Of a DNA stretch of 64,000 nt, positions 2,910 through 60,838 are shown piece after piece. Position 1 is the stretch's first letter, and each line of letters opens with the position of its first letter. The DNA is taken from positions 1-64,000 of the forward strand of contig JAHBNG010000050.1 in NCBI GenBank assembly GCA_019217005.1. Direction: 5' to 3'. The notes under the pieces were generated by a model. That model saw only the letters and a list, made by a program, of their open reading frames with translations. It was not told the origin of the DNA and did not search any database. The position numbers and the translations under genes were made by a program. The stretch is from Chloroflexi bacterium TSY (GTDB lineage: Bacteria > Chloroflexota > Anaerolineae > Caldilineales > Caldilineaceae).

Positions 2910-2926
2910 TTACCAAATAGAGTCAC

Positions 2927-2992
2927 TTAAACTCCGTACTTTCGCAGCATTTTTTACTCTTGCAGAGTTACGGACGAAAGTACGGAGTTTAA
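2927..2992. repeat. Long perfect hairpin downstream of NACHT-FGE gene
   Basis: Perfect inverted repeat with 18-bp arms (2927-2944 and 2975-2992) around a 30-base loop, flanked by GTCAC on the left and GTGAC on the right. It starts 18 bases after the NACHT-FGE stop. There is no T-run, so it is either a factor-independent processing or termination hairpin or a tiny mobile palindrome. Repeated at 60839-60905. Confidence 0.75.
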
Positions 2993-3581
2993 ATAATGTG
3001 ACTATAAGCTCTGGAATTCTGGACACAAAGTGGGCGCATTGCGTCCATTTCTGAACTCTGCTCGAATATTTCAAACCGTAGAACAGACAGCCTGTTTGTT
3101 CATACACCACAAACAGAACAACCGCGCTACCTCCCCTCACCACACACCACCCAAGCATCACCAACAAATCGCCACACCCATCGACACCTCTTCTGCTCTA
3201 CGTTCTGCGCTCTACATTCAAGCGTTAACCTCACTACGTGTCGTCGACGGCATGAGTTTGATCGGCGATCAGCTCTACACGATAACAAATAATTTCCAAG
3301 ATGACATGTCGATCGACATTGGCAAATCAGCATTCATAATTGTCTGAGAGTTAGAAATGTCAGCAAATTGTAATATGTCTTTTTTTAGAACAGTCTTATA
3401 CTAAATATCTACTGCCATCATACTATTAATCTATCCTTCTCCGAAACAGTAGATACAGCAGATTCCTTTCTCGAAATAGTAGATTTTTTTGACATTTATA
3501 GAGGTTCTTGTAGCGATTTAAGCCTTAAATATTGATCCTGTAAAGAAGGCAGTCAAATGTTGACATATACCACACTCACTC

Positions 3582-3643
3582 ATATCTGAGAATAAATTCG
3601 ACTGTTCTATCCGACCGAAAGCGGTCAATTTATTCTCAGATAT
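3582..3643. repeat. 17-bp-arm inverted repeat with nested hairpin
   Basis: Arms 3582-3598 and 3627-3643 are perfect reverse complements. The loop contains a second small hairpin, GACCG-AAAG-CGGTC. It lies upstream of the HTH-NB-ARC gene and could be an operator or structured leader. The same structure is at about 61495-61556. Confidence 0.65.
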
Positions 3644-3655
3644 TGCAGGACTTAG

Positions 3656-3735
3656 AACCTATCCAAAAAGTGGTTGTGAGTTCGATCAGCTTCCCGAGTG
3701 AGAATACATCGCCACAGAACTTTTCGGATAAGCAC
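3656..3735. mobile_element. 80-bp miniature element (family 3)
   Basis: Palindromic element with termini AACCTATCC and GGATAAGCAC, flanked on both sides by TTAG (3652-3655 and 3736-3739). Related copies are at 22742, 29369, 32853, 49512 and 61569. The flanking 4-mer fits the YTAR target of IS5-group elements; the mobilising transposase is not identified. Confidence 0.75.
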
Positions 3736-4021
3736 TTAGTATAGTTTCGTTCTTGAAACCACTTCAAGAACCGACCATCGATTCCCAAAATATAGAACAT
3801 CAATAAAGTATCGTTGGTTAGCGGCGAGTTTGCCCTTGTATAAAAAATTGAGATTCTTTGAGTTTTCGTGAAGTCTCCGTTGGAGAGTTTGTTAGTTTGC
3901 AGTTTTTGTTGACCGACTCGTAAACCAACTGAATGCCACACAATTTTTCTGACAACTAAACTTGATTATTTGCGATTGATCATTTTCGTGATGTGACGAA
4001 TCCGACAGGGGAGTGAATGCC

Positions 4022-6520
4022 ATGCAAGAACATTTTGGTGATGTATTCAATGAATATATGAAAGCTCAACGGCGTAATCCAGGGCAATTGGCAAAGCTCA
4101 CTGGTATTCCCAGACAGACCATTATTAGCTGGAAGAACGGTACAGTGAAGCGACCACAGCGCATTCTCGATATCCTGCGGTTAGCACAGCCTTACACCTA
4201 GACCGAAGCCAAGTTAACCGGCTTCTGCGCGCAGCGAACCATGAACCGGTGGAACAACTGGCCGAGCAGGATCATAGCGGACAACAAGGCAATAGCAGAA
4301 GCGCTTGACATATGGCTAACGAATTCAACGTCAGTACAGTCCAGCACAGTTGATGCACCCTCCGCTCCATTTTCAGCACCACGACCCATCCACAATTTTG
4401 TAGGACATTATGGGCTAATTCATGAAGTGAGCACAGCTTTACGCCAAGGAGGAATCTGTGCGCTGTGGGGCATGGGCGGTATCGGGAAGAGTGAACTGGC
4501 CAAGATCTTGGCCGATTTATTGCGCAATGATTTCCCACATGGCGTCCTTTGGGCCGACATGAGTCGAGATCCAACGAGTGATACAGTAGATGAGATCCGA
4601 TTACGCGAAATTCTTGGAAATTGGCTAGAACTCTGTGGTCGGCGCGTTGGCGGTGATGGTGATGAGACGCAGAGCATGGCAGGCCGTAGTAGCATTCTGC
4701 GCACGATTCTCAGTCAGCGCAGAATGTTGTTGATACTAGATGATGTTCGCTTTTCGGAAGAGATCGAACCATTTTTGCCCCCCGAGGGCAGTTCCTCTGC
4801 ATTACTCATCACGACTCGCAATCGACAATCAGGAAGACGATATGGTCAGCTTTTTGAAGTTCCACCGCTGAAGGAAGACGAAAGCCAGCAGCTAATCCAG
4901 AGTTATTTAGGACACAGACGGGGGTGGTTCATTTTAGGCGGACAATTAGGTTTACATTTTTGCAAAGAGAAAAGATGTTTATATTTTCTAATTTGAGCCA
5001 TGCTCAGGCAGAAAATGACCTCATATAGATTTTTGTCTATGTATCAAAAGTGTAAACCTAATTCTGAACCACCCCCACAGACGCATCCATAAAGAACAGG
5101 GGAATGTGGCGACTTTGGTTCGGTTGCTGGAAGGACATCCGTTAGCTTTAAGTATAGTGAGCAGCGATTTTGAAGCAAGTCATGAGCTAACAATTCGAGT
5201 ATGTTGAACTGTTGCAGAACGAAGATCAACGTCTTTCGCATCTTGATGACTGGGCAGATAGTTCGCGCCGAGCGCGGGCCACCATTGAGATAAGCTATCG
5301 TCATCTGCCCGCTGATCTGCAAAAATTTTTTCTGCTTCTTCCTCTTTTTGAAGAATCCGATTTCGATAGCGCCGCTGTCGCAGCAGCGGCCGACAAGCCA
5401 CCACTACAGATCAAGAAGAATCTGGGACGTCTCTGTGCACTGACTCTGGTTGAAGAGGTACGCTATGCACATGATAGCCATTTGCCAGAAGCAAGCGAAA
5501 AGATGGGACAAGCAAGTGATCAACACATTCGTTACCGACTGCATTCTCTCATCCGGCTCTTTGCTATCGAAAAGGCGAAAGAGGGCGACCAGAGCATAAA
5601 CGGGTCAGAAGAGCGACTAGCGAACCATTATATCCAGCTTGTGGAAAAACAGAGCGCTTATCCATTCAGCAGTCTCCAGCAGGACATTGAACATATCTTG
5701 CGTTCCTTAACATGGCTAGCCCAACAGGGAAAGTGGACGCTCTATCGCAAAACCGTCAATAACCTAACCAACATCCAATTGGGTTTAGCTGGATTTCTGG
5801 ACAGTCGTGGCCACTGGTCAATGGCCATTGAGTTACTTCATCGCTGCCTACAAGATGAAACCCTAACGACCAATCCTCAAGGGGTGGCCGAGATTTATCT
5901 GAAGCTGGCACTCTTTTATGAGCGTCAAGGCAAACAGGTAGAGGCATCAGCTCACCTTGGACTAGCAGAGAAAGCCATGCTCTCCTCACCCGTAAGTCCA
6001 ACAGAGCATCGGTTTTGGGCTTACTTTTATCAATTGCGCGGTCGCCTCAATCCATCCGATGTATTGATGTGGAGCCGAAGAACTCTAGAGCAGATTCAGC
6101 AGGATGAAACAGCTAGGGCCAGTTACGAGAAAGGCTACTTTCTGATTTGGCATGGTTCAGTTTTAGGACGACAAGGAATGCGGGATCCGGCCAGAGGACA
6201 CTCAACAGGGGCTTACGCTCTTACCTCCAGAAGCAAACGCCGCTCGCATCAATGGTCTCAACGCACTGGGTATTTTGCAGGAAATATCAGGTGACTCTCA
6301 AGCTGCCATCACAAGCTGGCAACAAGCCATGACCTCAGCCAAAGCCGTTGGCGACCTGCGGCGGGAAGGAATGCTCTGGGCGAATATCGGTGCAACAGAA
6401 AGTCGTTGTGGTCGATTGCAGGATGCGATTGTGAACAAGCAGGCGGCTTTGGAACGCTACCGTGCCGTGGGTTTCCTCAGTGGACAGATCTTGACATTAA
6501 GCAATCTGGCGGCAGATTAG
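4022..6520 (+). pseudogene. HTH-NB-ARC-TPR STAND protein, broken copy
   Basis: Damaged reading of the gene at 61937-64000, extending further 3' than that copy. An N-terminal XRE-like helix-turn-helix is followed out of frame by an NB-ARC ATPase with P-loop GMGGIGKS (near 4470) and Walker B LLILDDV (near 4735). It is then interrupted by the 155-bp element at 4921-5075. After the element come the GHPLAL motif typical of NB-ARC domains and TPR-like helical repeats. Further indels occur near 4187, 5203 and 6195. The 3' end is cut by an IS701-type element at 6521. The missing C-terminal end is recognisable in the paralogue at 40448-41500. Confidence 0.8.
4921..5075. mobile_element. 155-bp miniature element (family 1) inside NB-ARC gene
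   Basis: Ends are GGGGTGGTTCA and TGAACCACCCC. The 8-bp target duplication CACAGACG is at 4913-4920 and 5076-5083. Removing the element and one duplication gives a continuous NB-ARC reading frame (LGHRR-IHKEQG). No coding capacity. Other copies: 8707-8861, 20898-21052, 62837-62991. Confidence 0.92.
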
Positions 6521-8129
6521 TACTACTGTGCAGCAATATATTGTGAAACACAAAGGAAATTCGTTATATTTCTGGGCATATTGCTAACAAAACGCAAACA
6601 GAATGCAAAGGAAAAATGAGATAGACTGAAGAGCCAATAAAATGAAGCAGTCTTCGATGAAAGGAAATCAAGATGAAACTTGCTCAAGCAGTCAATCAAT
6701 ATGACTACAGCCAACTGGAAAGCCCGCCGCTGCTGGAACTGACAGAAGAGCAACTGGCGGCACTGGCCGACCAACTCCAGGAGTATCATGCCATATATAG
6801 TCCATACTTCAGCCATGTGGCTCAGAGAGAGCATGCGTACCACTACATGCGAGGCTTGTTAGACCCCGAAATCAAACGCAAATCGGCCGAGAACATCGCG
6901 CTGGCGACAGTAGGAGAATCGGGTGTACGCCCCCCTGCAAAGCTTTGTGGGTCAGAGCCGCTGGAGCGGTGAAGCGATGCTGGCGGAACATACTCGACAG
7001 ACAGGTGAGTTGTTGGGAGACGCAAATGGCGTCTTACTCCTGGATGGGAGCGACATTCCCAAGCAAGGAGAAGAGTCAGTGGGCGTCAAGCGGCAGCGGT
7101 GTGGCGAACTGGGCAAGATCGCCAACTGTCAAGCCGGAGTCTTCCTGGGATATAATAGCTCTCATGGCTATACCTTACTGAACTGTCGGTTGTATATCCC
7201 CCAAGAATGGTTTAGTGATGAGTATGCAGAGAAGCGGTACAAAACCGGTCTTCCCACTGACCTGACCTTCCAAACAAAAAATGAATTGGCTTGGTCCATG
7301 ATTGAGCAGACGCACGCCCTGGGTGCGTTGCCCATCCGCTGGATCACTATGGATGAAGCCTTTGGCAAAGATACTCATCTGCTTGACTGCATTGATGGCC
7401 AAACCGCTTACAGCTACTTTGCTGAAGTGCCCAAAGAGACTCGTGTCTGGACCTCCAGCCCCCAGACCTATCTGCCCGCATCATCTGGACGCGGGCGCAA
7501 AGCTCAAGCTCCGCGTCCGGCCTGGTGAACCTACGCCTCTCACCGTTGCTCAACTCGCTGACACCTTCCAGGAGCATGAGTGGCAACAGCATGTTCTCAA
7601 AGAGGGCTCCAAGGGCTTCATCGTTGCTTCCATTGCTTGTCGCCGCATTGTCTCTGTCCGCAATGGGCTCCCCGGTTCTGCTCTCTGGCTCATCGTCCGC
7701 CGCAATCCCGATTGCTCTCTGCAATACTTTCTCTCAATGCACCCTTGAGACTTCCTTGGATGACTTCGCCACTGTTTCTGCTTTGCGTTGGCCCATTGAA
7801 ACCATTTTTGAACAAGCCAAGCAGTTTCTCGGACTCAACGAATATGAAACTCGCAGTTGGCTCGGTTGGCATCATCATATGACCTTAGTCATTTTGGCCT
7901 TTGGTTTCTTGGCTCGTTCTCAGTTTTTCCTCAAATATGATGCCCCCGCTCTCACTTTGCCACAGGTTGTTGAACTTCTCCATGCCGTTCTGCCTAAACC
8001 TGTCTTGACACTCGCTGAGACTATCGAGCGCCTTCGCTACAAGCAACGTCGTCTTGCTTCCGCTAAACGCTCGCATTATCTTGTGCAAAAATCGAACATT
8101 ATCGAGCCTTTACTTGATGCACAGTAGTA
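6521..8129 (+). mobile_element. IS701-type insertion sequence, copy A
   Basis: About 1.6 kb, bounded by 12-bp inverted repeats TACTACTGTGCA (6521-6532) and TGCACAGTAGTA (8118-8129). A near-identical copy lies inverted at 41502-43108. Here the flanks are TTAG on the left and CTAA on the right, so there is no matching target duplication. Together with the loss of the TPR gene to the right, this implies a rearrangement after insertion. Confidence 0.88.
6673..8127 (+). pseudogene. IS701-type transposase, frameshifted copy
   Basis: Encodes a DDE transposase of about 485 residues when read across frameshifts. It begins MKLAQAVNQYDYS and contains LLLDGSDIPKQG (first catalytic Asp region) and the SVGVKRQRCGELGK block characteristic of the IS701 group. 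Compared with the copy at 41504-42956 it has an extra C in the C-run near 6930, an extra A near 7500 and missing bases near 7737 and 7746. These leave three overlapping open pieces. Either decayed or poorly sequenced; the other copy has one frameshift at a different site, so neither reads through as written. Confidence 0.85.
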
Positions 8130-8375
8130 CTAAGCTACTCCTTTTATAAAAAACACCTCAGAACTGACCCATCTCCAGTCAGCTACTAGCACACACGAAA
8201 GAGGGGAATATAAAAGCAAGGATGCTGCCACACACCCCTATCAGCACGCTCTTATAATTACCCTAATTTTCAAGTTTAGCATAAACTTTTGAGTTACCCA
8301 ATTGTTAAAACTCTAGGACAATAGCGCACTTCGTAATAGCATCGAATTTTGGTTGCGGAAAAATGGGGGGTATTT

Positions 8376-13541: not shown

Positions 13542-15043
13542 TTTACTTTCTGGTAAAAGAAAAGAGATGAGGTGAGAAATGTGACAAAAAGCGGTTAGCA
13601 GTTCATCCTAAAGGTAGAGAACCCAAAAAGGAGGAAGGAATGCTAACCGCGCCAGAAATAACTATAGCAGTACTGATGAATGTATTGCAAGTAACGCCGA
13701 TGGGAACAAACGTAAATGTAATGCGTCTGATGTGGGCAATGCTGAATGGGTCGTTTCTGAAAAGTCGAGGAGCAATCCATAGCGCATTGAAAGAAAGCGG
13801 GTTTGAAGATGAGGAGCTCCGGCGAAGCTGGTGGAGCTTTCGATATGGATCATGGGATATCACAAGTCTGCTGGGGTCGTGGCAAGAAGAAGTGGAAAGG
13901 GGGAATGGGAGGCAAAAAAGTTAGAAGGGTACCGAGTGAAAAGCATAGATATCACAGGGTTCTGGCGACCGAAGCTGCAAGGGAAAGTGAACCGACTCTA
14001 TAACTCAACGGCTCGTCGGGCATTGCCCGCGCTCATCTTTGGAGTGATGATAAGCTCGGGGGAGATAGGCGGGAAGCGAGTGCCACTGCTCAAGGCAATC
14101 ATGAGATGCACGGTTGGAACAAAGGAAAGTGAGTTTCGGAAAAAGCTGCTGACAGAGACGAAGAAATCACTGGAGTCAGACGAAGTGGCGGTGGTCGATG
14201 CCGGGTTTACAATCAGAGAAATGCTAGAAAGCGGCATCGACCGATTTGTCCTGCGGGAAGCCATTAACTGCACAGTGCGCCGCAATGAGTTCCCCAAACG
14301 CAAAGAAAAAAAGGCAGACCACCTGAATATGGTGATATTGTGCGTCCGCTCTCTCGCAGCTATAAGGGAAAGCGACTCGAGGCTACAACTCCGGACTCGT
14401 CTGGTCGCTTTCTCTATAGTGGTCGCCTGATTTGCTATCAAGCATGGCACAATCTCGTCCCCAGAACAACCAAGGTGGATACAGCCAACCGTACCTACTC
14501 GATTTACGTCATTCAGGATCCGGCCTACAACACACCTTTGGTTTTGGCGACCGTTATGACTTTGCAGCCTGAAACCATTTATCTTGTCTACCTGGAACGC
14601 TGGCCTGTTGAACATCCCCCCCTTGGCTTCCAAGCAGATGATTGGCTTACATCGTCAATTTGTTCATGCCGATGAGGCTTGTTTCCGCTTACCTGAACTG
14701 GGGCTGCTTGCTGGCAATCTTCTTTCCCATTTAGCCGCTTCTCTTCCTCCCATACCGACTGGCTACTGGGATCGAGAGCCTCAATCCACTCCCGGCAGGC
14801 TGCGCCGTGTTCTCTCGAGTGCTCTTTTTCCAACTCCTGACCAACTCGACCCTGACTTTCGGAAAAAGGCCTCGGTTTCACACCATTTCCCTAAAGGCGT
14901 TCTCGCTCATCGCCGCCTCAATGCCGCTGCTTAAACTAGCCGAGCACTATTTTTACATTTTATCCCGTTTTTTCAGGGTGGATTCTTTTTTCCGCCCCTT
15001 TCGGTTTGCCCTTTGTCACTCAAGCCTTTACCAGAAAGTAAAG
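13542..15043 (+). mobile_element. Decayed IS element, about 1.5 kb
   Basis: Bounded by perfect 17-bp inverted repeats, CTTTACTTTCTGGTAAA at 13542-13558 and its complement at 15027-15043, with a frameshifted DDE transposase inside. It inserted into the 3' end of the minus-strand membrane-protein gene at 15028-15489, whose last codons come from the IS end. No clear target duplication was found. Confidence 0.82.
13640..14934 (+). pseudogene. DDE transposase, multiply frameshifted
   Basis: At least four overlapping open pieces (13640-13924, 13831-14430, 14340-14675, 14584-14934) read as one transposase across frameshifts. Recognisable parts are an N-terminal helical domain, VDAGFTIREML (a likely catalytic Asp region), and LERWPVEHPPL, whose Glu would be the third DDE residue. 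The family looks IS4-superfamily-like but I cannot name it. Breaks near 13900, 14330 and 14630 make it non-functional as written. Confidence 0.75.
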
Positions 15044-15489
15044 ATTTCGGCGGTTTCCAGTTTGCGTTCCAGGATCCCAGATCGGGTCTCTTCCAAAATG
15101 GTCTGATGTTCTTCGGTGTAGGCTGCATCGAGCAAGGCGACACCCACTTCGCCGATGAGGGGAATGCCAAAGCCGAGTAGGCCGGCAATGTACCACTCGG
15201 CGCCATCTTGCAGGTAGATATAGGTTTGGAAGACTGCGCTCATGAGGCCGGACAGGATGGCCACGATCATGGCACGGTTGAAGAGTCGTTTGGTGCGTGC
15301 TGTGGCGGCAATGAAGGATGAGACAACTAATGTGAAGCCGAGGGAACTGCCCAGGGTCCAAGCCACCCACCCCTCATGGACAGTTTCAACCAGGCGGATG
15401 ATGTTGCCTGATGATGTGATGCCATAGAGGGCGATGAGGGATAGGAGTACGGTTGAGATGATGTTTTTGATAGTTAGAGCGTTTTTCAT
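15028..15489 (-). CDS. Small polytopic membrane protein, 3' end replaced by IS
   Basis: 153 residues with about four hydrophobic segments (roughly 8-28, 44-62, 72-90, 101-120), then a charged tail. The start at 15489 has a good ribosome binding site (AAGGAG) lying in the 10-base gap after the upstream nuclease-fusion gene, so the two are almost certainly cotranscribed. The final residues and stop come from the right inverted repeat of the IS at 13542-15043, so the native C-terminus is lost. No family recognised. It could be a membrane partner or an immunity-type protein for the nuclease fusion. Confidence 0.75.
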   Translation of the reverse strand: MKNALTIKNIISTVLLSLIALYGITSSGNIIRLVETVHEGWVAWTLGSSLGFTLVVSSFIAATARTKRLFNRAMIVAILSGLMSAVFQTYIYLQDGAEWYIAGLLGFGIPLIGEVGVALLDAAYTEEHQTILEETRSGILERKLETAEIFTFW

Positions 15490-15499: not shown

Positions 15500-17539
15500 T
15501 TATTGATTGTTCATTGCGACTTGACAGGCGCTCCAGAGACCGATACCAGCAGACCGGGCGCTTTGCTCGGCGGCGGCGATGCGCTGGGTGTACTGGTTTT
15601 TGTCGCCGTAGTCGTTGTGTCGGGCCAGGCCGCTCAGGATTAGTTCTTCGTTGTAGAGGGTCCCGTCGTTGGTCCAGATGTAGGCGAGTAGCCGACCGTA
15701 TTTGCCACGGCCGGCTGTTTCTAGGTAGATGATGGTGCCGATAGCCAAGCGCTCTTTGGTGTGGTTGCTGGCTTCCGGGCCAAAACATTCGATTGGCTTG
15801 GATGGATGAACGGTTTCGGGCGTGTCCACATCGAGTAGCCGGATTCGTTCTTCAGCGCCGTCCATGAAGCGGACGTCGATAGTGTCGCCATCGGAGACGT
15901 GGATGACGGTGGCCATCTGGGCTGTGGCGGGAATGCCACTGTTAGACGCCAGTGATGCTGATTCCGCGGGCGTCACGGGGCCAGCCACGGGTGAGGTTTG
16001 GATACGGATTTCGACTTTGGCTGTGTTGCCCACTACGCCAACAATTTGCACGTCGACCACAGTACCGGATAGCAGGCTATAGATGCGCGTGGGGTCAATG
16101 CTGTTGTCGGCGGGTGGAGCTTGGGGTACTGCGGTCGGTATGATGTAGGCAGGGGTCGGAGTGGCCACCCGCTTTTGGAACTGTACGTAGGCCAGTTGTA
16201 GTTTGGCGGCAGCGGCGTCGATCTTTTGATGGTCAACTTGGGCGACAACTGTGGCTTGCGCGACGGCGATGTTGTATTGGTTGGTGGCTTGTTCGAGAGC
16301 GAGAGATTCGGACAACATGCCGATATTTGTTTTCCAGCTCACCTTGTCGTAGTTCGTCTGAGCCTGCTGGAGCGCTCGTGAACGGATATTGAGTTCGGCG
16401 GCAGCTATTTGCATTCGTTGAGCGTCTGGCTGCGCGGAGAGGGCTGCAGCGGTGGCTTGGGCAATGGCGATTTGCAGTCGGGCGCTGGCTTCGGCCTGGA
16501 TCAAGGGATTGATTACAGCAGTGGGTATTGGTGGAACTGTGGTTGGCGTTGGTATGGGCGGTATTGTGAGTTGTTTGCGGTAGGTCGCTAGATCCGCCAA
16601 CAGATCGCCCTGTTCTACGACATCACCGACTGTAACAACGATTTCGGTGTTGGGATCGGCAACGTGGTCCACGCGTACGGGAATGATGACGGGTGTCGGT
16701 GTCGGCGTAGGCGTGGGGCCTGGTGCAGCGGCTTGGCGGATGGGGCCTCGTTCTACGACAACGTGGCGGATGTAGATGGGTTGTTGGGCCTGGCCGGCTT
16801 CGACGAGTTGGTCATTGATGCGCAGGTGGAAAGTATGGCCGACAACGCGTTCCACTTCAAAGCGCCCTTCAATTGCTTGGCGTGTGTCTTGCCAGGTTCC
16901 GCGAATGTCCGCGTAGATGGTGGAAGTCGCTTCCCAGTTGCGATAATCGGTGATGGCATAGTCCAGGTTACCGGTTGCTTGGCGGACCCATCCGCTTGGT
17001 GATGGAACGCCCCAGATTGCAGGCCAGGTTACGCCGATGACGAGGAGGAATGTGGCGATTCTCTCTGGTAGGCCACCGGTGGGCAAGTCAAGTATGTAGA
17101 ACTGGGTCGGCGATGGCCAAAGCAGAGTCACGCCAGCACGACCACCGATAATCATGTCTAGAACCAAGTGTGAACCATACCAGACCGGGAACCACCACCA
17201 GGACCAGGGTTCAACGCCAAAGATGGCAGCAACATAGGCAAGTAGAGCGATCATTCCAACGGCGAAAAGAGAATGAGTGATCGTGCGGTGTCCATAATGC
17301 TGATAGATATAATGAGAGAGAGATTTAACAAATCGCCCAATATGAGACTGTCCGGTGTCGATATCTGGCAGATTGCCGATTAAAAATGCACAAAGAATGA
17401 ACTCGACCGATAATTGCAGATCACCAAAAGAAGCCAACCAAACAGCAGGAAGCAAGGCGGCCAAACCATGAGAAAGAGGCGGTAACCAATTGTTGATGTA
17501 AGTCTGGAGTCTTCTAAGGTCAGTGGTGTTAGTGGTCAT
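15500..17539 (-). CDS. YdjM-like membrane protein fused to HlyD-type adaptor and thermonuclease
   Basis: 679 residues with three parts. Residues 1-180 form a YdjM/DUF457-type membrane-embedded metal-dependent hydrolase domain with NLPDIDTGQSHIGR, HRTITHSLF and SHLVLDMIIGG, plus several transmembrane segments. About residues 200-500 resemble a periplasmic adaptor: a half lipoyl motif (VTVGDVVEQGDLLADL), a long Ala/Gln-rich coiled-coil hairpin, then a second half motif (LLSGTVVDVQIVG), joined by Thr/Pro linkers. About residues 540-675 are a staphylococcal-nuclease domain with VSDGDTIDV, RIRLLDVDTPE (Arg and Glu), GRGKYGRLLAYIW (second Arg) and LILSGLAR. The expected catalytic residues are present, so it should be an active extracytoplasmic nuclease. 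No ribosome binding site is obvious at the ATG. The neighbours are a membrane ATPase upstream and a membrane protein 10 bases downstream. Confidence 0.85.
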   Translation of the reverse strand: MTTNTTDLRRLQTYINNWLPPLSHGLAALLPAVWLASFGDLQLSVEFILCAFLIGNLPDIDTGQSHIGRFVKSLSHYIYQHYGHRTITHSLFAVGMIALLAYVAAIFGVEPWSWWWFPVWYGSHLVLDMIIGGRAGVTLLWPSPTQFYILDLPTGGLPERIATFLLVIGVTWPAIWGVPSPSGWVRQATGNLDYAITDYRNWEATSTIYADIRGTWQDTRQAIEGRFEVERVVGHTFHLRINDQLVEAGQAQQPIYIRHVVVERGPIRQAAAPGPTPTPTPTPVIIPVRVDHVADPNTEIVVTVGDVVEQGDLLADLATYRKQLTIPPIPTPTTVPPIPTAVINPLIQAEASARLQIAIAQATAAALSAQPDAQRMQIAAAELNIRSRALQQAQTNYDKVSWKTNIGMLSESLALEQATNQYNIAVAQATVVAQVDHQKIDAAAAKLQLAYVQFQKRVATPTPAYIIPTAVPQAPPADNSIDPTRIYSLLSGTVVDVQIVGVVGNTAKVEIRIQTSPVAGPVTPAESASLASNSGIPATAQMATVIHVSDGDTIDVRFMDGAEERIRLLDVDTPETVHPSKPIECFGPEASNHTKERLAIGTIIYLETAGRGKYGRLLAYIWTNDGTLYNEELILSGLARHNDYGDKNQYTQRIAAAEQSARSAGIGLWSACQVAMNNQ

Positions 17540-17603: not shown

Positions 17604-18578
17604 TCACCGCATTATTTTGTAGATTAGGGGTCTGAGAAGCACACTTGCCAGCACAGAGCCTACACCCGCAAGCAAAATGAGCGAGTTGTCATCGAATCCT
17701 CTGAATACATACCGTGAGGCCATTAAGAAGATAATGGCAGCAAAGAGCAGCGGGATGCCAAGGTTGATGCGTCGTACTTGCACATTTGAATGCTCAAGTT
17801 CTCGAATGGCGGCTAAGTTGCCGCCGCTGCCCCGCAGTTGTTCGCACATGTCAAAGATAATGCCAGGCATTCCCTGAGCTGTGCGTAGAATCTTCTTTTC
17901 AATTGTGTTGGCATGTTTTGCCTCCTCACGATCCAACAGGCTCCAAATCATGGTGCGGGCCTCGTCTTCATCTAGCTGTGGCATCTCAATTTGTTTGAAG
18001 CGATCCAGAATAGACTGCACGCGCCTGCGCTTGGCCAGTGTATTTATGTCCGCCGCGGCCAGCACTATGCCATCGAGAAGTGGTTTGACGATTTCAAGCA
18101 CCGTCTTCTCGGTGGCTTTGTCTAAATCGTCTAGGATGAGCGTCAGTCCATTCATATGCTCAGCGATGAGAGCAATCAGCTTGGGAATTGTGTGTGACTT
18201 GAGCTTCTTGGTGGCAGCCTCCCAATCGTCGGCGTCATCGATGAGCAACAGGCCATCATCAAAGAGCCGCTCACAGATGGTTAGAATCACTTCTCGTTTA
18301 CTTTGCGATAGCGTGAGATGAAGCGCACCAGGAAACTCTGCGCGCATCCGTTCCAACATCCATGTGCGACCACTGCCATACTCGCCGGTGAGCAAGACAT
18401 GTTGACCGCGCTTGATGTGGCGTCGGATCGTCACAACCAGCTTTTCACGGCTGCCTGTTGTGATGGGCTGAACGTTTTCGGTTTGGATCTGCGATAATGA
18501 ATATAGCTGAGGTGTCGGTCGGCGGGCGTGTAGTGGGCGTCGGGTGAGCGGGTGGACTTTCATGGTTGTAACGGTCAT
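17604..18578 (-). CDS. Membrane-anchored AAA/STAND-type ATPase with variant Walker A
   Basis: 324 residues. The start at 18578 has GGAGG seven bases upstream. An N-terminal basic linker leads to a P-loop LLTGEYGSGRTWML (about residues 61-74) in which the usual Lys is Arg. Then come LLLIDDADD and LTLILDDLDKA as Walker B candidates, and a helical region. Two hydrophobic segments near residues 272-292 and 300-318 put the C-terminus in the membrane. The layout resembles ExeA-like AAA ATPases that couple to envelope machinery. It is 64 bases upstream of the nuclease fusion on the same strand and divergent from parA. The K-to-R change may weaken hydrolysis, making a nucleotide-sensing role possible. 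Confidence 0.75.
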   Translation of the reverse strand: MTVTTMKVHPLTRRPLHARRPTPQLYSLSQIQTENVQPITTGSREKLVVTIRRHIKRGQHVLLTGEYGSGRTWMLERMRAEFPGALHLTLSQSKREVILTICERLFDDGLLLIDDADDWEAATKKLKSHTIPKLIALIAEHMNGLTLILDDLDKATEKTVLEIVKPLLDGIVLAAADINTLAKRRRVQSILDRFKQIEMPQLDEDEARTMIWSLLDREEAKHANTIEKKILRTAQGMPGIIFDMCEQLRGSGGNLAAIRELEHSNVQVRRINLGIPLLFAAIIFLMASRYVFRGFDDNSLILLAGVGSVLASVLLRPLIYKIMR

Positions 18579-18730: not shown

Positions 18731-18797
18731 ACACTATGAAACACAATAAAACAGAGTCACACACTTTGATACACTGTGAATCAGAATGAAACAGGGT
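18731..18797. promoter_or_regulatory. Direct repeats upstream of parA (candidate operator or centromere)
   Basis: Two 27-base repeats at 18731-18757 and 18771-18797, 40 bases apart, match at 22 of 27 positions (core ACACTRTGAA then AAACAGRGT). The left one is preceded by GTGTACAC. Ribbon-helix-helix partition proteins typically bind direct repeats just upstream of their operon, so this is a likely parS site and promoter operator. Confidence 0.65.
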
Positions 18798-18826
18798 GTC
18801 GAATCATATCAACAGGAGTAGACATA

Positions 18827-19582
18827 GTGACACGCACTGTAGCCATATGTAGCCAAAAGGGGGGTGTCGGCAAAACCAGCCTGACCCAGAATCTTGGGGC
18901 CGAACTCGCACGAACTGGGGAGCGGGTCTTGGTCGTTGATTTTGATCCCCAATCGAATCTCACCAGCGGTTGGGGATTTGACCCGGTTGAGGAGCGACCC
19001 ACCGTTTATACAGCCATGCTTGACCCGACCCAAGCGCAGGCCTGCGTGATCCAACACCGTCCCAATATGGACCTGCTCCCCGCCGACCTGGATCTATCGG
19101 GGGCGGAACTTCAATTCCTGGCTGCGGTAGACCGCAACACCAAGCTCAAGAAGGCTCTCGCACCGCTCAAGGATGGGTATGACTTCATTTTGATCGATGG
19201 TCCGCCTAGCTTGGGGTTCTACACTGTGAACGCGCTCACGGCTGCCACAGAGCTCATCATCCCGCTGCAGGCGCAGGTCTATGCATACAAAGCGCTCGAT
19301 CAGTTGCTCAACATTGTGGGGCAGGTGCAAGAGATCAATCCGAGCCTACAACTCTCTGCCGTGGTGTTGACCATGTACGACATACGCAACTCTCTCACTT
19401 CATCGGTGGAAGAACAGGCGCGTAAGAAGTTTGGTGACTTGGTGATGCAGACGGTGATACCGGTCAATGTGCGCATTGCCGAAGCACCATTGGATGGTGT
19501 ATCTGTGCGGGAATATGCAGCAGAGAGCAAAGGGGCAGAAGCCTATACCAATTTGGCAAAGGAGATATTGGACCGTGGCTAG
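18827..19582 (+). CDS. parA: ParA-family partition ATPase
   Basis: 251 residues from the GTG at 18827, chosen over an upstream in-frame GTG (18776) because AGGAG lies at 18814-18818 and homologues begin close to the P-loop. Deviant Walker A KGGVGKTS is at about residues 10-17, the A' motif VVDFDPQSNLT follows, and Walker B is FILIDGPPSLG. ParA ATPases move plasmid copies apart by forming gradients on the nucleoid. The short form without an N-terminal HTH, followed by an RHH protein, is a type Ib partition arrangement. The stop overlaps the start of the next gene by 8 bases, so the two are translationally coupled. Confidence 0.93.
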   Translation: MTRTVAICSQKGGVGKTSLTQNLGAELARTGERVLVVDFDPQSNLTSGWGFDPVEERPTVYTAMLDPTQAQACVIQHRPNMDLLPADLDLSGAELQFLAAVDRNTKLKKALAPLKDGYDFILIDGPPSLGFYTVNALTAATELIIPLQAQVYAYKALDQLLNIVGQVQEINPSLQLSAVVLTMYDIRNSLTSSVEEQARKKFGDLVMQTVIPVNVRIAEAPLDGVSVREYAAESKGAEAYTNLAKEILDRG

Positions 19583-21052: not shown

Positions 21053-22626
21053 AATAACAGACAGCAGAAAGTAAGGTGTTCACCTGAGAGGGAGAGAATA
21101 AACGAAGATCAGGTGAAAAGTGAGATGTCTGGAAAAGGAAATGGCACCATAAGCGGCGGCGAACCAGAGAGAGGAGGTCATGGAAGGTGGCGTGAGTCTT
21201 GTGATACCAAGCAGCTTGAGGCAAAGGGATAGAGCCATCAGGAGAGAAGGCATGAGCCATCAAGATGACAAGGCTCAGTAGATCCAAATTTGGCGTTTTT
21301 GGCTATTTTCAGTCGAGATTGCAGGGATTTTGGAGTCATTTATTCAGATTTCGGTTACAGAAAACAACCTATTTCATATCTGAAAATCGCCCAAATCTAA
21401 CGCAAAAACTAGATATCGACCGGCAAATTTGTATTTATGTCAACTGTTTAGCCAGAATTCTCTCTCAAAACCTGAAATTTGGATCTACTGAGGCTGAAAA
21501 GACCAAAGAGAGCAGGAGTAGTCCTCTCAATGGCCAAGTCACTCCACTGGCGCTGAGTTTCGACACCGAGGTGAGCTCTGGCTTCCTCGAAAGAGACTTC
21601 AATGGACCAACGTTTGACGAAATCAGCGATGATGTGGGGGGCAGCCTGATGAATATCGGTGGAGAAGTAAGCGACGGTCTCAGCTTGGCCTTTGGGATCG
21701 CGGACTAAAACCCAGCGCAGAAGGAGCGGAGTTGTGCCGGTAGAGTACCAAAAGGCAATACCAGTGGCCCAGTCGACGACTTCAGATTCTCCCCCATACC
21801 AGTCAATGCGGCAGCGGTGCCAACAGGTGGTTTTGAAGAGGGCAACATCTTCCAGCTTGGGCAGTCGCTGCCCAACGACAGGAGGACGACCAGGTCGTTT
21901 TGTGCCGTCAGGTTTCAAACGGGAGGGTGGATAGTCAAAGAGACGCGCATCCAGGCGCAGAGGCCCAATCAAGGTGACTCCTTGGGATTGACAGCGCAAC
22001 CCCAACTCGATCACACTGTAAGCCCCATCGCCGATGAGCTTGATTTCTCGACCTGGCAAAGCTCGACGCAGCCAGGCCACCACCTGCATGGTTCGTTTCG
22101 CCACTGTTCGGTGGCGCTGGTTGAGCGTTTCGCTGACTTTCGGTGTTGTGAGTAAGACGCTCAGAAAGGGCATTGACCAGTAGAGGTCACTCCACGGCAA
22201 CTTGACCACCACACAGAAGAGCAGCCACCGCAATCCGCTCGTGCTTACGCTCATCTTCCGGCCTGACGCCAGGCTATCTCGCCAGTGTCCTCGTTTGCTG
22301 ATCTTGGGACCCCAGCGCCTTTCTAGCGTCTCGTCTACCGTTATCTCGACTGGCGCTCCCATGACCACAAACGTATCCACAATCAAGTGCAGTAAGATAT
22401 AGCTCAACATCAATCCATCCCACTTTGCTCGATTCAGCACATGGTGATACTTGGACCAGTCTCCCTCTTGCTCCAATCCCATCACTCTCAACGCCGCTGT
22501 CACCGTTCGTCTTCCCTTCGTTAACACCGTCCCTATCACCAAGACCAGTGCCTTTTGGTACGTCGGTTCTGTGAAGACTGGGCGAAAGCTCTCGAACAAC
22601 GGGATTATTTCTGCTGGAAGGAACAT
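21053..22626 (-). pseudogene. IS transposase interrupted by a miniature element
   Basis: Begins MFLPAEIIPLFESFRPVF at 22626, as in the intact 451-residue copy at 35923-37278, with catalytic-type blocks ITVDETLERRWG and LIGDGAYSVIELG. After LFGLFSL the frame is broken by the 215-bp element at 21276-21490. The remaining C-terminal codons resume at 21275 and run to about 21056. Not functional unless the element excises. Confidence 0.9.
21276..21490. mobile_element. 215-bp miniature element (family 2) inside transposase
   Basis: Ends CAGTAGATCCAAATTT and AAATTTGGATCTACTG, with 5-bp target duplication AGGCT at 21271-21275 and 21491-21495. A copy differing by almost nothing is at 52541-52755. No coding capacity. 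Confidence 0.92.
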
Positions 22627-22947: not shown

Positions 22948-23164
22948 ATCATAAAGGCGGATTTTTATCTCTACGCGAAAGTGTTTATTGATACCAACAG
23001 ACACTTTCACTCATTAGACATCTCTTCATCACCCAGAATTAGTTGACCAAACCTTGCTGGGCTCATTCTGCTTGGTCATGGATACCAGTTGAGGAGTAAA
23101 GCCTCGATGCTTCATAAGGGCAAAGCAGCAACGAAACGAACTGTTGCATCTAGAACATTTGAGT

Positions 23165-24139
23165 ATGAACGAATTAATGTTGGTTTTACTTCTGATTCTG
23201 ATGGTGTTTACTCTCTGGTACTGGCTGTGGAGGCTGGCTCAGTATCTGTGGCGGCCAGTGTCGGAGTGGACAAATTCTTACCGGATTCCGATATGGCAAC
23301 CCAGGCACCCGAGGGTAGTAATCATTGCGGCTCTGGTGGGTTTAGCAGGCGTCATTGTAGGGCTTCAAGACTCAAACGCCTTTGCAAGTCCCGTATGGAG
23401 ATTTCTGGTTGACCTAGCTCCCGAAATGGTGGGGTTGGCTTTTACGGTGGTGGTGATTGATGAGCTGGTTCAGCGTGCCGTCAAACAGGAAGAACTACAG
23501 GTTGAGAAAGAGCGCATTTTTGAGCAATTGCATAGTCCAGTACGAGATGTGGCGGTGGAAGCGTTACGGTTGGTGCGTAAAAATGGCTGGTTTGGTGAAA
23601 TAGAAAAGATTAGGCTAGCCGGAGTCCACTGGTCGGGGGCAGACCTTGAAGGGGAAAATTTGGCGGGGGCTAACCTTCGAGATGCGCAATTGGAGGGGGC
23701 CAAACTAATAGGTGCAAATTTGGAGGGAGCTGACATTTGGGGTGCAAGGTTGGCGGGGGCTGACCTTATGGGTGCGAATCTAAAGGGGACTCAATTAATG
23801 GGTGCGAATTTGGAGAGAACTAACCTTGCTTATGCGAATTTGGAAACGGCAGATCTTAACAATGCAAATTTGGAGAGAACTGTCCTTGAATGTGCGACTC
23901 TACAGGAGGCTAATCTTCGAGAGGCGCGGTTGGGACCTGATCTTTGGGGTGTAAAGCTGGAGGGGGCTGACCTTAGCAAGGCAAATTTGGAGAGGGCTGA
24001 CTTTGAGTATGTGAATCTGACAGGGGCCATGTATACCGCCGAGACAACATGGCCCGATGGCTTCGACCCCAAAGCTGCGGGAGGCATCGAAGTAGACCCA
24101 GCAACAGGTGAACTCCTAGATACACAAGAAGAGAAATGA
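23165..24139 (+). CDS. Membrane-anchored pentapeptide-repeat protein
   Basis: 324 residues from the ATG at 23165. The N-terminus has hydrophobic segments (LMLVLLLILMVFTLWYWLW, VVIIAALVGLAGVIVGL and a third near residue 90), then a charged helical linker (VKQEELQVEKERIFEQL). From about residue 155 it is built of A(D/N)LxX pentapeptide repeats such as GADLEGENLAGANLRDAQLE, expected to form a right-handed quadrilateral beta helix. It ends with WPDGFDPKAAGGIEVD, a C-terminal block shared with the protein at 27114 and a remnant near 27005. Probably inner-membrane anchored with the repeats in the cytoplasm. First gene of a likely operon with the next two. Confidence 0.82.
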   Translation: MNELMLVLLLILMVFTLWYWLWRLAQYLWRPVSEWTNSYRIPIWQPRHPRVVIIAALVGLAGVIVGLQDSNAFASPVWRFLVDLAPEMVGLAFTVVVIDELVQRAVKQEELQVEKERIFEQLHSPVRDVAVEALRLVRKNGWFGEIEKIRLAGVHWSGADLEGENLAGANLRDAQLEGAKLIGANLEGADIWGARLAGADLMGANLKGTQLMGANLERTNLAYANLETADLNNANLERTVLECATLQEANLREARLGPDLWGVKLEGADLSKANLERADFEYVNLTGAMYTAETTWPDGFDPKAAGGIEVDPATGELLDTQEEK

Positions 24140-24589: not shown

Positions 24590-26758
24590 ATGACGGGCGA
24601 ATCTCAATCAACTGGAAAAAACCAGGGTGAGAGCAAAGTAGACATCAGTGATGTTGAGGGTGGGATTCTTTTTGCTATCTGGCGATTCATCAGACGCCCC
24701 AAATCACATACCCTAGACTCATCTAGTAATAGCGTGAGCACCGATGACATTGATGGCGGTATCCACAGTTCAAATATTGCGGGACGGGATATCCACATCC
24801 ACAACAATATGGATGGAAACATCCCTAACTTGGTCACCCTTGGGGATGATGAGATAGAAGATTTGTTGAGTAAAGCTAGACAGCTAGAAATTATGGGGAA
24901 CTTAGGAGGGGCACTTGATATTTACCACCAAATTCAAAATATTGACCCGATATATCCTGGCCTAAAAATAGCTATACGGAGAGTTGAAGCCGATTTATCG
25001 AAAACTTATGTAGATATATATGGCAAGATTATAGAGAGTGAACTTGTTCGACTGGTAGCAATAATAATAGTGTTTATAGCTATTTCCCTCGCATTCATTC
25101 TATCTCCCTGGGGGGCAAAAATTATAGAAACAGTGAGAGCCTTTCTGTTTTCCACGCCTACCCCAGTAGAGTTGCCTTTACCCAAAAAAACAGAAACGCC
25201 TGTGGTATTTATGACACCGCAACCTACTCCCGTGCCCTCACTTACTGCCACATTTACGCCGATGCCAACGTCATCTCCAACATCCATCAGCACACCAAGC
25301 CCTGATAACACATCAACTCAATTTGATACTGAAACCTACTTCAATCTAGGTGTCGATGCTTTGAATCGAGGAAAATACGAATTAGCTATTAGTAATTTTA
25401 ATGAAGCGATTCGTATTAATCCTAATTACATACTCGCCTCGGCTGTTGTAGGCGAGTATGAGTTAGCTATCGCTGATTACGCCAAAGTCATCACCCTGGA
25501 CCCGGAGCTTGCACTTGCCTACTACAACAGAGGGAATGCTTATCAGGCCCAAGGTGAGTACGAACTGGCTATCGCTGACTATAACAGAGCCATCGAGCTT
25601 GACCCAGAGCCTACACTTACCTACTACAATAGAGGGAATGCTTATCAGGCCCAAGGTGAGTTTGAGAAAGCCATCGCTGATTACACGAAAGCTATTAGGG
25701 ATAAAGACAACTTAGTGCGTGAGTCTGCTGCCGAAGCGTTGGGACAGATAGGATCAGAGGCAGTCCCGGCGTTGATTACAGCCCTGGCGGATGGAGACTA
25801 CTTCCTGCGTAGGGCCGCCGCACGGGTGTTGGGACAGATAGGACCAGAGGCAGTCCCGGCGTTGATTACAGCCCTGGCGGATAAAAACGACTTCGTGCGT
25901 GAGTCCGCTGCACGGGTGTTGGGACAGATAGGACCAGAGGCAATCCCGGCGTTGATTGCAGCCCTGGCGGATGGAGACTACTTCCTGCGTAGGGCCGCCG
26001 CACGGGTGTTGGGTCGGATAGGACCAGAGGCAATCCCGGCGTTGATTACAGCCCTGGCGGATAAAAACGACTTCGTGCGTGAGTCCGCTGCTGAGGCGTT
26101 AGGCCGAATAGGACCAGAGGCAAAGGATGCAGTCCCGACGTTGATTGTAATCCTGACAGATAAAAACGACTTCGTGCGTAGGGCCGCCGCACGGACATTG
26201 GGCCGGATAGAGCCAGAGGCAAAGGATGTAGTCCCGGCATTGATTGTAGCCCTGACGGATAAAAACGATTTCGTGCGTAGGGCTGTTGCCTAAGCGTTGG
26301 GCCAAATAGGACCAGAGGCAAAGGATGCAGTCCCGGCATTGATTGTAGCCCTGACGGATAAAAACGACTTCGTGCGTAGGGCAGCTGCACGGACGTTGGG
26401 CCAAATAGGGTCAGAGGCGAAGCGGTCAGTCCCAGCTTTGATTGTAGCCCTGACGGATGAAGACCACTTCGTGCGTAGGGCAGCTGCACGGACGTTGGGC
26501 CAAATAGGGCCAGAAGCGAAGTGGTCAGTCCCAGCTTTGATTGCAGCCCTGACGGATGAAGACTACTTCATGCGTAGGGCCGTTGCCGAAGCGTTGGGAC
26601 AGATAGGACCAGAGGCAGTCCCGGCGTTGATTACAGCCCTGGCGGATGAAGACGCCGACGTGCGTGAGTCTGCTGCCGAGGCGTTGTTGAATATTACTGA
26701 CTTAGAGTACGGTACGGATATTGACCGATGGCAAAAATGGTGGGAGAAGCAAAAGTAA
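24590..26758 (+). pseudogene. Membrane TPR-HEAT repeat protein with an in-frame stop
   Basis: 722 codons with one TAA at 26291-26293, where neighbouring repeats have GAA; a single G-to-T change would explain it. Order: an N-terminal block with DGGIHSSNIAGRDIHIH (residues about 54-70), a helical region, one transmembrane helix (about 158-178), a Thr/Pro-rich linker, three TPR units (YNRGNAYQAQGEYELAIADY), then about ten HEAT-like repeats of 31-37 residues (ALGQIGPEAVPALITALAD). TPR and HEAT arrays are protein-interaction scaffolds. Repeats are nearly identical at DNA level, so unequal recombination or misassembly could alter copy number. Whether the stop is real cannot be told here. Confidence 0.8.
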
Positions 26759-27050: not shown

Positions 27051-27113
27051 GAAAACGAGATAGCACTTATCAAAGGTGGCAGCCGATTGATGGGTTATGG
27101 GGGGAAAAGACAC

Positions 27114-27983
27114 ATGTTTTGCGTTAATTGTGGAACGGAATTACCGGATGATGCTAATTTTTGTTTGAAGTGTGGCAAGTCACAAAAGGAAAAGGTTGAC
27201 CAAGGTACGAGCTCTGTTACCATCGGCACCGTTGATGGCGGTATTCATGACTCCACCATTGCTGGACGGGATGTTGAACAAATGCAGGTGACAGGCAATG
27301 TCGAGACCAGTGGTGACTTTTTTACGGGTGATAAGGTAGATGGAGATAAGGTTGGTAGAGACCAAGTTGAGGGCGACCAGACGACGATTCGTGAAATCAG
27401 TGACAGTACGGTGGGAGTGGGTCGAGGTGCCCAAGTGGCAAGTGTAAGTGAAGGTGGGACAGCGTATCAAGCCCAAGGGGATATCGTCCTAGGCAAAGCC
27501 AAACGTGATGAGCAATATCAGATTGTCTTGAACTGGGATGGGAAAACTCGGTTGCGAGGATTTGATTTGTCGGGTCGAGATTTATCTGGACTCAAGTTAG
27601 ACAATGCTGACTTGCAGGGTTCAAACCTACAAGGAGTTAACCTGCGGGAAACGAGCTTGGTTAAAGCAGATTTGAGGAATACAAATCTGCAGTGGGTAGA
27701 TTTATCTGAACTCAGTTTAATCAACGTTGACTTGCGAGATTCAAATCTCCAAGGGGCTAACTTATGGGAAACGAGTTTGGTTAAGGCGGATTTGAGGAAT
27801 GCAAATCTGAAAGGGGCGAGATTCTGGAAAACCGACTTGTATGGGGCTGATTTAAGGGACACCGACCTGCAAGAGGCGAAGCTGTCGGGAGCCAACCTGC
27901 AAGCAGCGACATATGACGAATATACAATATGGCCCGATGGGTTTGACCCCGAAAAAGCAGGGGCGGTTTTGGTGGATGGGTAA
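27114..27983 (+). CDS. Zinc-ribbon pentapeptide-repeat protein
   Basis: 289 residues from ATG 27114. The N-terminal zinc ribbon is CVNC-x10-CLKC (residues 3-19). A low-complexity linker follows with DGGIHDSTIAGRDVEQ and repeated GDKV/GRDQV units, likely a short beta-helical or disordered coil. Pentapeptide repeats from about residue 155 (ADLQGSNLQGVNLRETSLVK) end in the WPDGFDPEKAGAV block. It appears cytoplasmic. The IAGRD segment matches one in the TPR-HEAT protein upstream. Role unknown; scaffold or adaptor is a guess from the repeats. Confidence 0.8.
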   Translation: MFCVNCGTELPDDANFCLKCGKSQKEKVDQGTSSVTIGTVDGGIHDSTIAGRDVEQMQVTGNVETSGDFFTGDKVDGDKVGRDQVEGDQTTIREISDSTVGVGRGAQVASVSEGGTAYQAQGDIVLGKAKRDEQYQIVLNWDGKTRLRGFDLSGRDLSGLKLDNADLQGSNLQGVNLRETSLVKADLRNTNLQWVDLSELSLINVDLRDSNLQGANLWETSLVKADLRNANLKGARFWKTDLYGADLRDTDLQEAKLSGANLQAATYDEYTIWPDGFDPEKAGAVLVDG

Positions 27984-40318: not shown

Positions 40319-41501
40319 GATCAAGATAGACCGAATAGTTTATTGACTCAGAGTATTTCATAAATGGAGATTAGAAACATCTATCAATTTGTATAGTATT
40401 TGTATGAAATCGAAGGAGATAGTTGTTTTAAGCAGTTCTTTGTATGTTTAAGAGGCAGATTTCGATTGATGGATGTTGGTTTGCAGCTGCTCGACCAATG
40501 TGACATGATTTGAACAGTTCAGTTCAAGAAAGGTCTTATGAGCGCTTGCGAGAGTGCTCTCAGCTTGGTCGAATAGTTGCTCATGGAACAGGCATTTTCC
40601 CAGAGCATATTGTGTACGAGCTGCTTCGAAAGAATTTGTCTCGGCAAAGCGTGATTCACTTTGCCGGTAGGCATCTTGGGCGGCATCAGGGTTTCCCAGG
40701 TAGTTCTGTATCTTGCCTAAGAGTCGGTAAGCCAGACCATCCTCTACCTGTTCGTTCTCGGCGATTTTGATCAAATCCGCAGCCAGAGTGAAAGCTTCAT
40801 CCGATTGCTGGCGTTGTAGAGCCAACTCAGCCGCCAGTCGTTTGTAGATAATTTCCTGGTGTTTCTCTTGGAGTTGCTCTTGAAGCTGAGCGGCTTCGTT
40901 GTATACGGATTCAATCAGCTGCACTGGGTCGCTCCGCTCAAGCATGAGTTGGGTTTTATTGAATAACACCCATTGCAGTTCTGACAACAGTCCATTCTGT
41001 CGAGCCAATGATTCCGCCTCCGTCAAGTGAATCCGGGCTTTATCAAAGTCCAACAGCTGGGTGTAATCTGCCGCCAGATTGCTTAATGTCAAGATCTGTC
41101 CACTGAGGAAACCCACGGCACGGTAGCGTTCCAAAGCCGCCTGCTTGTTCACAATCGCATCCTGCAATCGACCACAACGACTTTCTGTTGCACCGATTAT
41201 TCGCCCAGAGCATCCCTTCCCACCGCAGGTCGCCAACGGCTTTGGCTGAGGTCATGGCTTGTTGCCAGCTTGTGATGGCAGAGTGAGAATCGCCTGACAG
41301 TTCATGTAAATTACCCAATACATTCAGGCCATTGATGCGAGCGGCGTTTGCTTCTGATGGCAATAGCTCTAGTCCCTGTTGAGTGGTCTCTTTGGCTGGA
41401 TCCCGCATTCCTTGTCGTCCTAAAACTGAACCATGCCAAATCAGAAAGTAGCCTTTCTCATCGCTGGCTCCAGCTGTTTCGTCCTGCTGAATCTGCTCTA
41501 G

Positions 41502-43108: not shown

Positions 43109-43673
43109 CTAGAGCTTTCTGGCTCCACATCAATGCGTCAATTGGATTGAGGCGAGAGCGCAATTGATAACAATAGGCCCAAAACCGATGCTCTGTTGGA
43201 TTTGTGGGGGAAGAGGGTATGGCTTTCTCTGCTAGTCCAAGGTGAGCTGATGCCTCTACCTGTTTGCCCTGACGCTCATAAAAGAGCGCCAGCTTCAGAT
43301 AAATCTCGGCCACCTTTTGTGGATTGGCAGTGAGTGCTTCATCTTGCAAGCAGTGATGAAGCAACTCAATGGCCATTGACCAGTGACCACGACTATCCAG
43401 AAATCCAGCTAAACCCAATTGGATGTTGGTTAGGTTATTGACGGTTTTGCGATAGAGCGTCCACTTTCCCTGTTGGGCTAGCCATGTTAAGGAACGCAAG
43501 ATATGTCCAAAATCCTGCTGAAGACCACGAAATGGATAGGTACTCTGTTCCTCCACGAGCTGAATATAATGGTCAGCTAACCGTTGTCTTGGTTCATCCA
43601 TACCCCCCCTTTCATACTCCGCATGTGCTGTAGCAAAAAGTTGAACGAGTGAATGAAGCCGATTACAAATGTG

Positions 43674-56379: not shown

Positions 56380-56386
56380 CCCAACC

Positions 56387-60818: not shown

Positions 60819-60838
60819 TTACCAAATAGAGAAGTCAC

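Follow-up and report, generated by a model that had tools for sequence, protein, structure and literature searches.

Periplasmic adaptors of the EmrA/HlyD/AcrA kind, which act in efflux and type I secretion, are among the closest described counterparts of a YdjM-beta domain-lipoyl/hairpin adaptor-SNase fusion protein that is encoded by Chloroflexi bacterium TSY at 15500..17539 (minus strand) of contig JAHBNG010000050.1 (assembly GCA_019217005.1). We analyzed the first 64,000 nucleotides of this contig, hereafter the window. In structure models, the fusion appears to share with these adaptors the order half-lipoyl, alpha-hairpin, half-lipoyl as well as the fold, and the gene neighborhood adds a further likeness to efflux and type I secretion, since Thermus and two cyanobacteria have a gene of the TolC family close by. 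However, where such adaptors work with an MFS, ABC or RND pump, the one in the fusion is part of the same chain as YdjM; it also bears a nuclease, and the AAA ATPase with which it is paired has a membrane hairpin of its own.

The nuclease part has described counterparts as well. The uptake nucleases EndA of Streptococcus pneumoniae, which we take to be of the Endonuclease_NS kind, and NucT of Helicobacter pylori lie outside the cytoplasmic membrane, as the window nuclease probably does; to our knowledge, neither is tied to a YdjM-adaptor-ATPase set. On plasmids, the two nuclease families found in the fusions are represented by Nuc of pKM101 and ParB of RK2/RP4, the latter presumably an SNase family member, but both stand alone and are not fused to a membrane stalk. 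EndA is reported to hydrolyse the non-transforming strand (PMC8579336), and both NucT and pKM101 Nuc are PLD family nucleases (PMC5714352). Finally, the core module of the archaeal plasmid pT26-2 also combines plasmid-borne membrane proteins with an AAA+ ATPase, and its authors hypothesize a novel mechanism of DNA or protein transfer; unlike for the set described here, the word hydrolase is absent from the main text of that article (PMC6972569). The same source lists pTBMP1, a plasmid that does carry the ATPase-YdjM pair, as a family separate from pT26-2. Elsewhere, pTBMP1 is described as showing no apparent relationship to any other thermococcal plasmid known at the time (PMC3543421), and one of its regions as resembling a Pyrococcus island, with other genes involved (PMC5126054). 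We found no description of the gene set itself in open-licence PMC papers.

The fusion is a single intact frame of 679 residues, all parts of which lie on the minus strand. The YdjM membrane-hydrolase domain (residues 21-154; 17078..17479) matched PF04307 with E=3.7e-20 and 72.6 bits, against a Pfam gathering score of 29, and the SNase domain (about residues 541-671; 15527..15919), with a conserved cysteine pair at 585 and 672, scored above the gathering cut-off of PF00565. Between them lie a small beta domain (about residues 206-267; 16739..16924), which is missing in several shorter relatives, and the putative adaptor, in which a first half-lipoyl (about residues 285-316; 16592..16687) and a second one (about residues 485-514; 15998..16087), both modeled as strands, flank an alpha-helical hairpin (about residues 345-459; 16163..16507) modeled as four helices. 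A first-pass annotation made from the sequence alone had proposed YdjM, adaptor and nuclease in one chain, and this was borne out, by Pfam for the two ends and by structure models for the adaptor; the beta domain between YdjM and adaptor comes in addition. Each part is a member of a known family, but we know of no counterpart to the composition as a whole.

The assignment of the adaptor follows the models and not Pfam, since the window protein had no significant adaptor profile match, its lipoyl-type Pfam hits reaching E values of only about 0.07. A fold search with the window protein returned mostly SNase entries, which crowded out the rest. Because of this, a nuclease-free relative (P0010) was folded and searched; nothing was found at E 0.001, the top row was TrmB, and coiled-coil rows were also present. 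In a viral structure library, 11 rows were obtained at E 0.001, all named ones being nucleases and 4 of the 11 being unnamed.

A protein search recovered 78 homologues, 17 of which combine YdjM with SNase and 6 YdjM with PLDc_2 in precomputed Pfam assignments. In an alignment of 26 rows, window protein included, 16 proteins end in SNase, five in tandem PLD domains and one in a PD40 propeller, three have nothing beyond the adaptor, and the tail of P0017 shows no match to SNase or PLD. The YdjM-adaptor-SNase order is common to 15 other aligned homologues, and the fusion is thus a recurring one. An assembly join was ruled out by these full-length relatives and by P0001, a protein identical to the window fusion that comes from another record with a separate contig of 5,311 bases. 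Since nucleases of two unrelated folds are found at the C-terminal position of the fusions, it is presumably nuclease activity that matters there.

Several observations on individual homologues can be added. The tandem-PLD sister fusions (P0016, P0018, P0023, P0024, P0027 and P0029) all have a cysteine pair near the end, with both positions the same when counted from the C terminus, and P0027 carries an SH3_3 domain after its first half-lipoyl. P0034, which is less closely related, combines YdjM with a coiled-coil part and SNase and by eye resembles the YdjM proteins of Saprospiraceae. Among the relatives, P0017 and P0028 carry the label Chloroflexota or Chloroflexi. For P0003, a fusion with 57% identity, and for the ATPase P0100, the longest contig has the same length of 67,170 bases (ENA), a hint of co-occurrence.

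The seven His/Asp positions of YdjM that we checked are invariant in all 26 aligned rows. For the nuclease, positions were mapped by alignment to Staphylococcus aureus nuclease, whose residue numbering and catalytic roles (D21, R35, D40, T41, E43 and R87) we take as given. The equivalents of D19, D21, R35, T41, E43 and R87 occur in all 16 SNase rows, in agreement with the first-pass statement that the nuclease retains its Arg, Glu and Arg. The D40 equivalent is Asp in 11 of these rows and Asn in five; the window protein has Asp and thus possesses all of the D21, R35, D40, T41, E43 and R87 equivalents.

A plain hydropathy scan was too coarse to fix the topology on its own, but paired cysteines are a usual sign of disulfides and hence of an extracytoplasmic location. 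Cysteine counts in the stalk are 0, 2 or 4 in all 26 rows (non-zero in 15) and those of the C-terminal part are even in all 26 (non-zero in 22, including eight cysteines in the unmatched P0017 tail), and counts in the YdjM part are odd in 14 of 26, although the rows are related and the counts therefore not independent. The SNase pair 585 and 672 is kept in 16 of 16 SNase rows. These even counts past the membrane part indicate that the C-terminal half, including the nuclease, is probably extracytoplasmic. The earlier idea of a membrane-tethered nuclease held outside by the adaptor is supported by this, except that the nuclease would leave the stalk at its lipoyl end through a linker and not at the hairpin tip; incoming or extracellular DNA, proposed then as its target, may be what it acts on.

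The first reading is also to be amended in that the fusion is one part of a multi-gene, plasmid-borne set. In the window, an AAA ATPase gene (17604..18578, minus strand) is found upstream, separated from the fusion gene by 64 bases, and a gene for a small membrane protein of 153 residues (15028..15489, minus strand) follows 10 bases downstream, all three in one orientation. The ATPase ends with two membrane helices in a recognizable pattern, and by eye this C-terminal hairpin (17622..17762, minus strand) is the most recognizable feature shared by the family. A word search gave five ATPase relatives besides the query itself, and tblastn on plasmids revealed, on the Thermococcus barophilus plasmid pTBMP1, an ATPase with 25% identity whose gene immediately precedes one for YdjM.

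To follow this pairing, a profile of 11 ATPase sequences, five of them from loci L007, L008, L009, L011 and L014, was applied to 29 plasmid loci, of which 27 had been chosen via YdjM similarity and two (L007 and L014) via the ATPase. An ATPase was found near YdjM at 24 of the 27 YdjM-chosen loci, which cover six bacterial phyla. Together with the two ATPase-found loci, one of them archaeal, this gives 26 pair loci. Without the training loci L008, L009 and L011, the count is 21 of 24, of which three (L010, L012 and L013) are Thermus relatives of the training loci. Conversely, a profile built from five sequences outside the window's group and run on all window frames of at least 60 residues, with E up to 1, picked out a single frame, the window ATPase (E about 2e-26). 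Co-occurrence elsewhere, which had been raised for both neighbors of the fusion, was thus found for the ATPase; the small membrane protein had no plasmid match at E 0.01, and its ATP-synthase-c-like match (23.7 bits) is just under the Pfam cut-off of 24.

Outside plasmids, the pairing was seen once. Two genome-contig scans found no fusion and a single short YdjM match, in a Gemmatimonadetes metagenome-assembled genome (L001; L002 is the same gene from the whole genome, and L003 a second YdjM-like place there). Two viral scans gave no match, and a third gave three YdjM loci (L004 to L006). Among these six non-plasmid loci, an ATPase was found at L005 (IMG/VR) and at none of the others. The genomic context of the fusion in other hosts was not found in these genome-contig and viral scans.

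In Bacteroidota, the ATPase is joined to a recombinase: at five of five loci tested (L014, L021, L022, L023 and L031), Pfam detected Phage_integrase and AAA in one chain. The membrane-hairpin ATPase sits behind the tyrosine recombinase there, in proteins annotated solely as integrase; at L005, Pfam found the last part of an integrase. Two genes are split over two frames, the Stanieria ATPase (L015, 2083-2986) and the Flammeovirga MY04 YdjM (L023, 6001-7265), and at L024 only the end of the ATPase falls inside the fetched stretch.

Some loci carry as separate genes what is joined in the window protein and its sister fusions, namely adaptor, SNase or PLD. In Thermus, YdjM is fused to an adaptor, the adaptor profile matching at L008, L011 and L013 but not at L010 and L012. 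A separate adaptor gene was detected by profile in Moorena (L009, 7.9e-8), Synechocystis (L019, 1.2e-3) and Synechococcus elongatus (L020, 7.6e-4). The Synechocystis one also matched an NCBIfam HlyD-like model at E=1.2e-5, far under the cut-off, and the separate adaptors of L009, L020 and L033 gave no Pfam lipoyl-type hit. TolC is annotated at all five Thermus loci and, about 5 kb downstream, at L016; Pfam OEP was matched in L008 (3.6e-13) and in Nostoc L018 (1e-5).

Separate nuclease genes are present at fewer than half of the 26 pair loci: SNase at seven (L010-L013, L019, L020 and L033), PLD at one (L007, Pfam 4.2e-26) and Endonuclease_NS at three (L023 and L024 by Pfam; L032 by annotation, with only its end inside the stretch). 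The remaining 15 have none of the three in the fetched stretches. SNase was sought by profile at all loci; PLD and Endonuclease_NS were taken from annotation and Pfam-checked in L007, L023 and L024, so that more of these may be present. Not counted were an SNase-like match at L026 (E=2.7e-4), annotated GIY-YIG genes (L026 and L035), an annotated 3'-5' exonuclease (L009) and a PD-(D/E)XK-like gene (L023).

Small plasmids of Thermus carry the ATPase-YdjM set, as does pSYSX of Synechocystis PCC 6803. In cyanobacteria, a TrwB_AAD_bind/HerA-like motor directly follows YdjM at L018, L019, L020 and L033, with pSYSX among these plasmids, that is, in four of four genes tested, chosen for their annotation as DUF87 or type IV secretion system type; the gene after YdjM is also annotated as DUF87 at L017, and is not TrwB/HerA-like at L009 and L035. 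The best NCBIfam matches of the Synechocystis motor were CedD, HerA and CedB, all partial and far under the cut-offs. In Allochromatium, a CHAP protein follows YdjM (Pfam 1.9e-8). In the window, a ParA partition ATPase (18776..19582, plus strand; Pfam AAA_31 4.4e-53, PHROG ParA-like 3.6e-66) is divergent from the operon. Similarly, the Thermus plasmids with YdjM have ParA divergent from the ATPase, followed by a TolC family gene, small genes and YdjM, in a window-like layout. Two cyanobacterial plasmids carry ParA/ParB nearby.

We propose, with moderate confidence, that the fusion is the extracytoplasmic nuclease of a plasmid-encoded DNA-handling envelope complex, most likely one that acts in plasmid DNA transfer. 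The recurrence of the partner genes on plasmids of distant bacteria and an archaeon suggests an undescribed DNA-handling machine of the cell surface. The recombinase fusion, the TrwB-like motor, the ParA neighbors and the nucleases point to DNA handling, and adaptor plus TolC suggest a route across the envelope; these, taken with a nuclease on the outside, would make the fusion the surface nuclease of such a complex. The domains, active-site conservation, nuclease swapping, ATPase-YdjM pairing and neighbors can be read in the sequences themselves; oligomeric state, topology, the handling of DNA in transit, its direction and the task, be it transfer, exclusion or another, are inferred. YdjM, probably oligomeric, would reside in the cytoplasmic membrane, with the beta domain and the lipoyl/hairpin adaptor forming a stalk or ring outside and the SNase held on a linker at the lipoyl end of the stalk. 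Using its membrane hairpin, the AAA ATPase would attach from the cytoplasm and power or gate the complex. In hosts with two membranes, a TolC-like protein could extend the conduit, and in some cyanobacteria the TrwB/HerA-like motor could feed DNA into it. DNA on its way out or in may then be cut by the nuclease on the outer side of the membrane, most likely in the course of plasmid DNA transfer.

Transfer is preferred because the motor resembles coupling proteins, because related nucleases (EndA, NucT) act outside the membrane in uptake, and because plasmids matching YdjM are mostly typed as non-mobilizable, while SNase on plasmids generally goes with conjugation. Indeed, plasmids matching three YdjM queries were typed non-mobilizable in 67 of 71, 48 of 55 and 101 of 135 cases, compared to 2382 of the 5000 best ParA matches; mobility typing is weaker outside well-studied groups, and this bias is a hint only. 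By comparison, an SNase match anywhere was found in 3426 of 72,556 plasmid records (PLSDB), 2707 of these 3426 being conjugative. More tentatively, the whole set may represent an undescribed plasmid transfer machine of bacteria and archaea, distinct from type IV secretion systems and consisting of the membrane-anchored ATPase, YdjM as channel or platform, an adaptor/TolC conduit where the host has two membranes, an optional TrwB/HerA-like motor and an exchangeable surface nuclease.

Some findings weigh against the ATPase-YdjM pairing. No ATPase was found in the fetched stretches of L028 (Azospirillum), L029 (Bacillus) and L030 (Flammeovirga kamogawensis), and 24 of 27 is a biased rate, the loci having been hand-chosen across taxa and some having already been listed with an ATP-binding gene. 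Interchangeable non-specific nucleases (SNase, PLD and Endonuclease_NS) fit destruction better than processing. In PADLOC, single-domain matches link the SNase part of the window fusion, its only matching region, to SNc+LTD (4.5e-38), the PLD part of P0018 to DrmC (2.9e-20) and the Synechocystis motor to mad8 (2.3e-21) and DndH (4.5e-21). The nuclease types and the PADLOC matches favor the main rival, exclusion or defence, in which the membrane-tethered nuclease would destroy DNA that phages, competing plasmids or transformation bring in, with ATPase and YdjM as sensor and platform. The Abi-family and PemK/MazF genes annotated beside the Nitrosococcus copy are in line with it. However, the YdjM proteins of Thermus, Synechocystis and Thermococcus have no PADLOC match at 0.001 and their ATPases match weakly (best, mad8 at 1.4e-6), many copies lack a nuclease, and a TolC-like conduit is unexpected for a simple barrier. 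We consider exclusion rather unlikely.

The ParA and ParA/ParB neighbors and the recombinase fused to the Bacteroidota ATPase could also be accommodated by plasmid maintenance, in which the ATPase-YdjM pair would serve partition or dimer resolution by tethering the plasmid to the membrane, with the nuclease as a passenger. This is improbable, since it leaves the extracytoplasmic nuclease, the adaptor and TolC unexplained, and partition genes are common on plasmids anyway (at least 5000 ParA-matching records). A role in nutrition or biofilms, with the surface nuclease supplying phosphate and nucleotides from extracellular DNA, would suit the predicted location and has a parallel in NucT, a PLD nuclease described as implicated in purine salvage and transformation (PMC5714352), but it accounts for neither the ATPase, nor its recombinase fusions, nor the DNA motor, and we regard it as very unlikely. 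Least probable of all is a lipid system with YdjM as membrane phosphoesterase and PLD as phospholipase, for SNase and Endonuclease_NS are nucleases and SNase occupies the place of PLD, even though Thermus YdjM weakly matches Zn-dependent phospholipase C (E=9.6e-5; 22.8 bits, Pfam cut-off 26.8).

As for the replicon, positions 1-6082 repeat at 57897-64000 with 99.6% identity and small gaps. Because its ends are so nearly identical, the window probably represents a circular plasmid of about 57.9 kb whose sequence runs on beyond its starting point, with a tandem duplication as the alternative. A NACHT-type NTPase and then an FGE-sulfatase-like protein (57796-60818) lie inside the end repeat shared with the window start. 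No relaxase or mating-pair genes were found among the 17 window open reading frames run through Pfam. A tyrosine recombinase (56297-57451, Pfam 1.5e-20) shares the molecule with the fusion; in Bacteroidota, partner ATPase and recombinase form one chain. Pentapeptide-repeat, HEAT/TPR-repeat and zinc-ribbon/pentapeptide proteins (23144-24139, 24590-26293 and 27087-27983) are encoded on one strand, with internal DNA repeats at 25699-26686. Two transposase-like copies, recognized by eye at 21448-22626 (minus) and 35923-37278 (plus), share 99.5% identity along 1252 bases, and another pair in inverted orientation, at 6518-8135 and 41495-43111 and about 1.6 kb long, is likewise 99.5% identical.

If the ATPase-YdjM pair belongs to a DNA-handling envelope complex, it would offer a testable route by which plasmids without recognized relaxases spread, or a new form of plasmid exclusion. 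Were the transfer machine real, it would account for the spread from cell to cell of many plasmids that are classed as non-mobilizable by typing.
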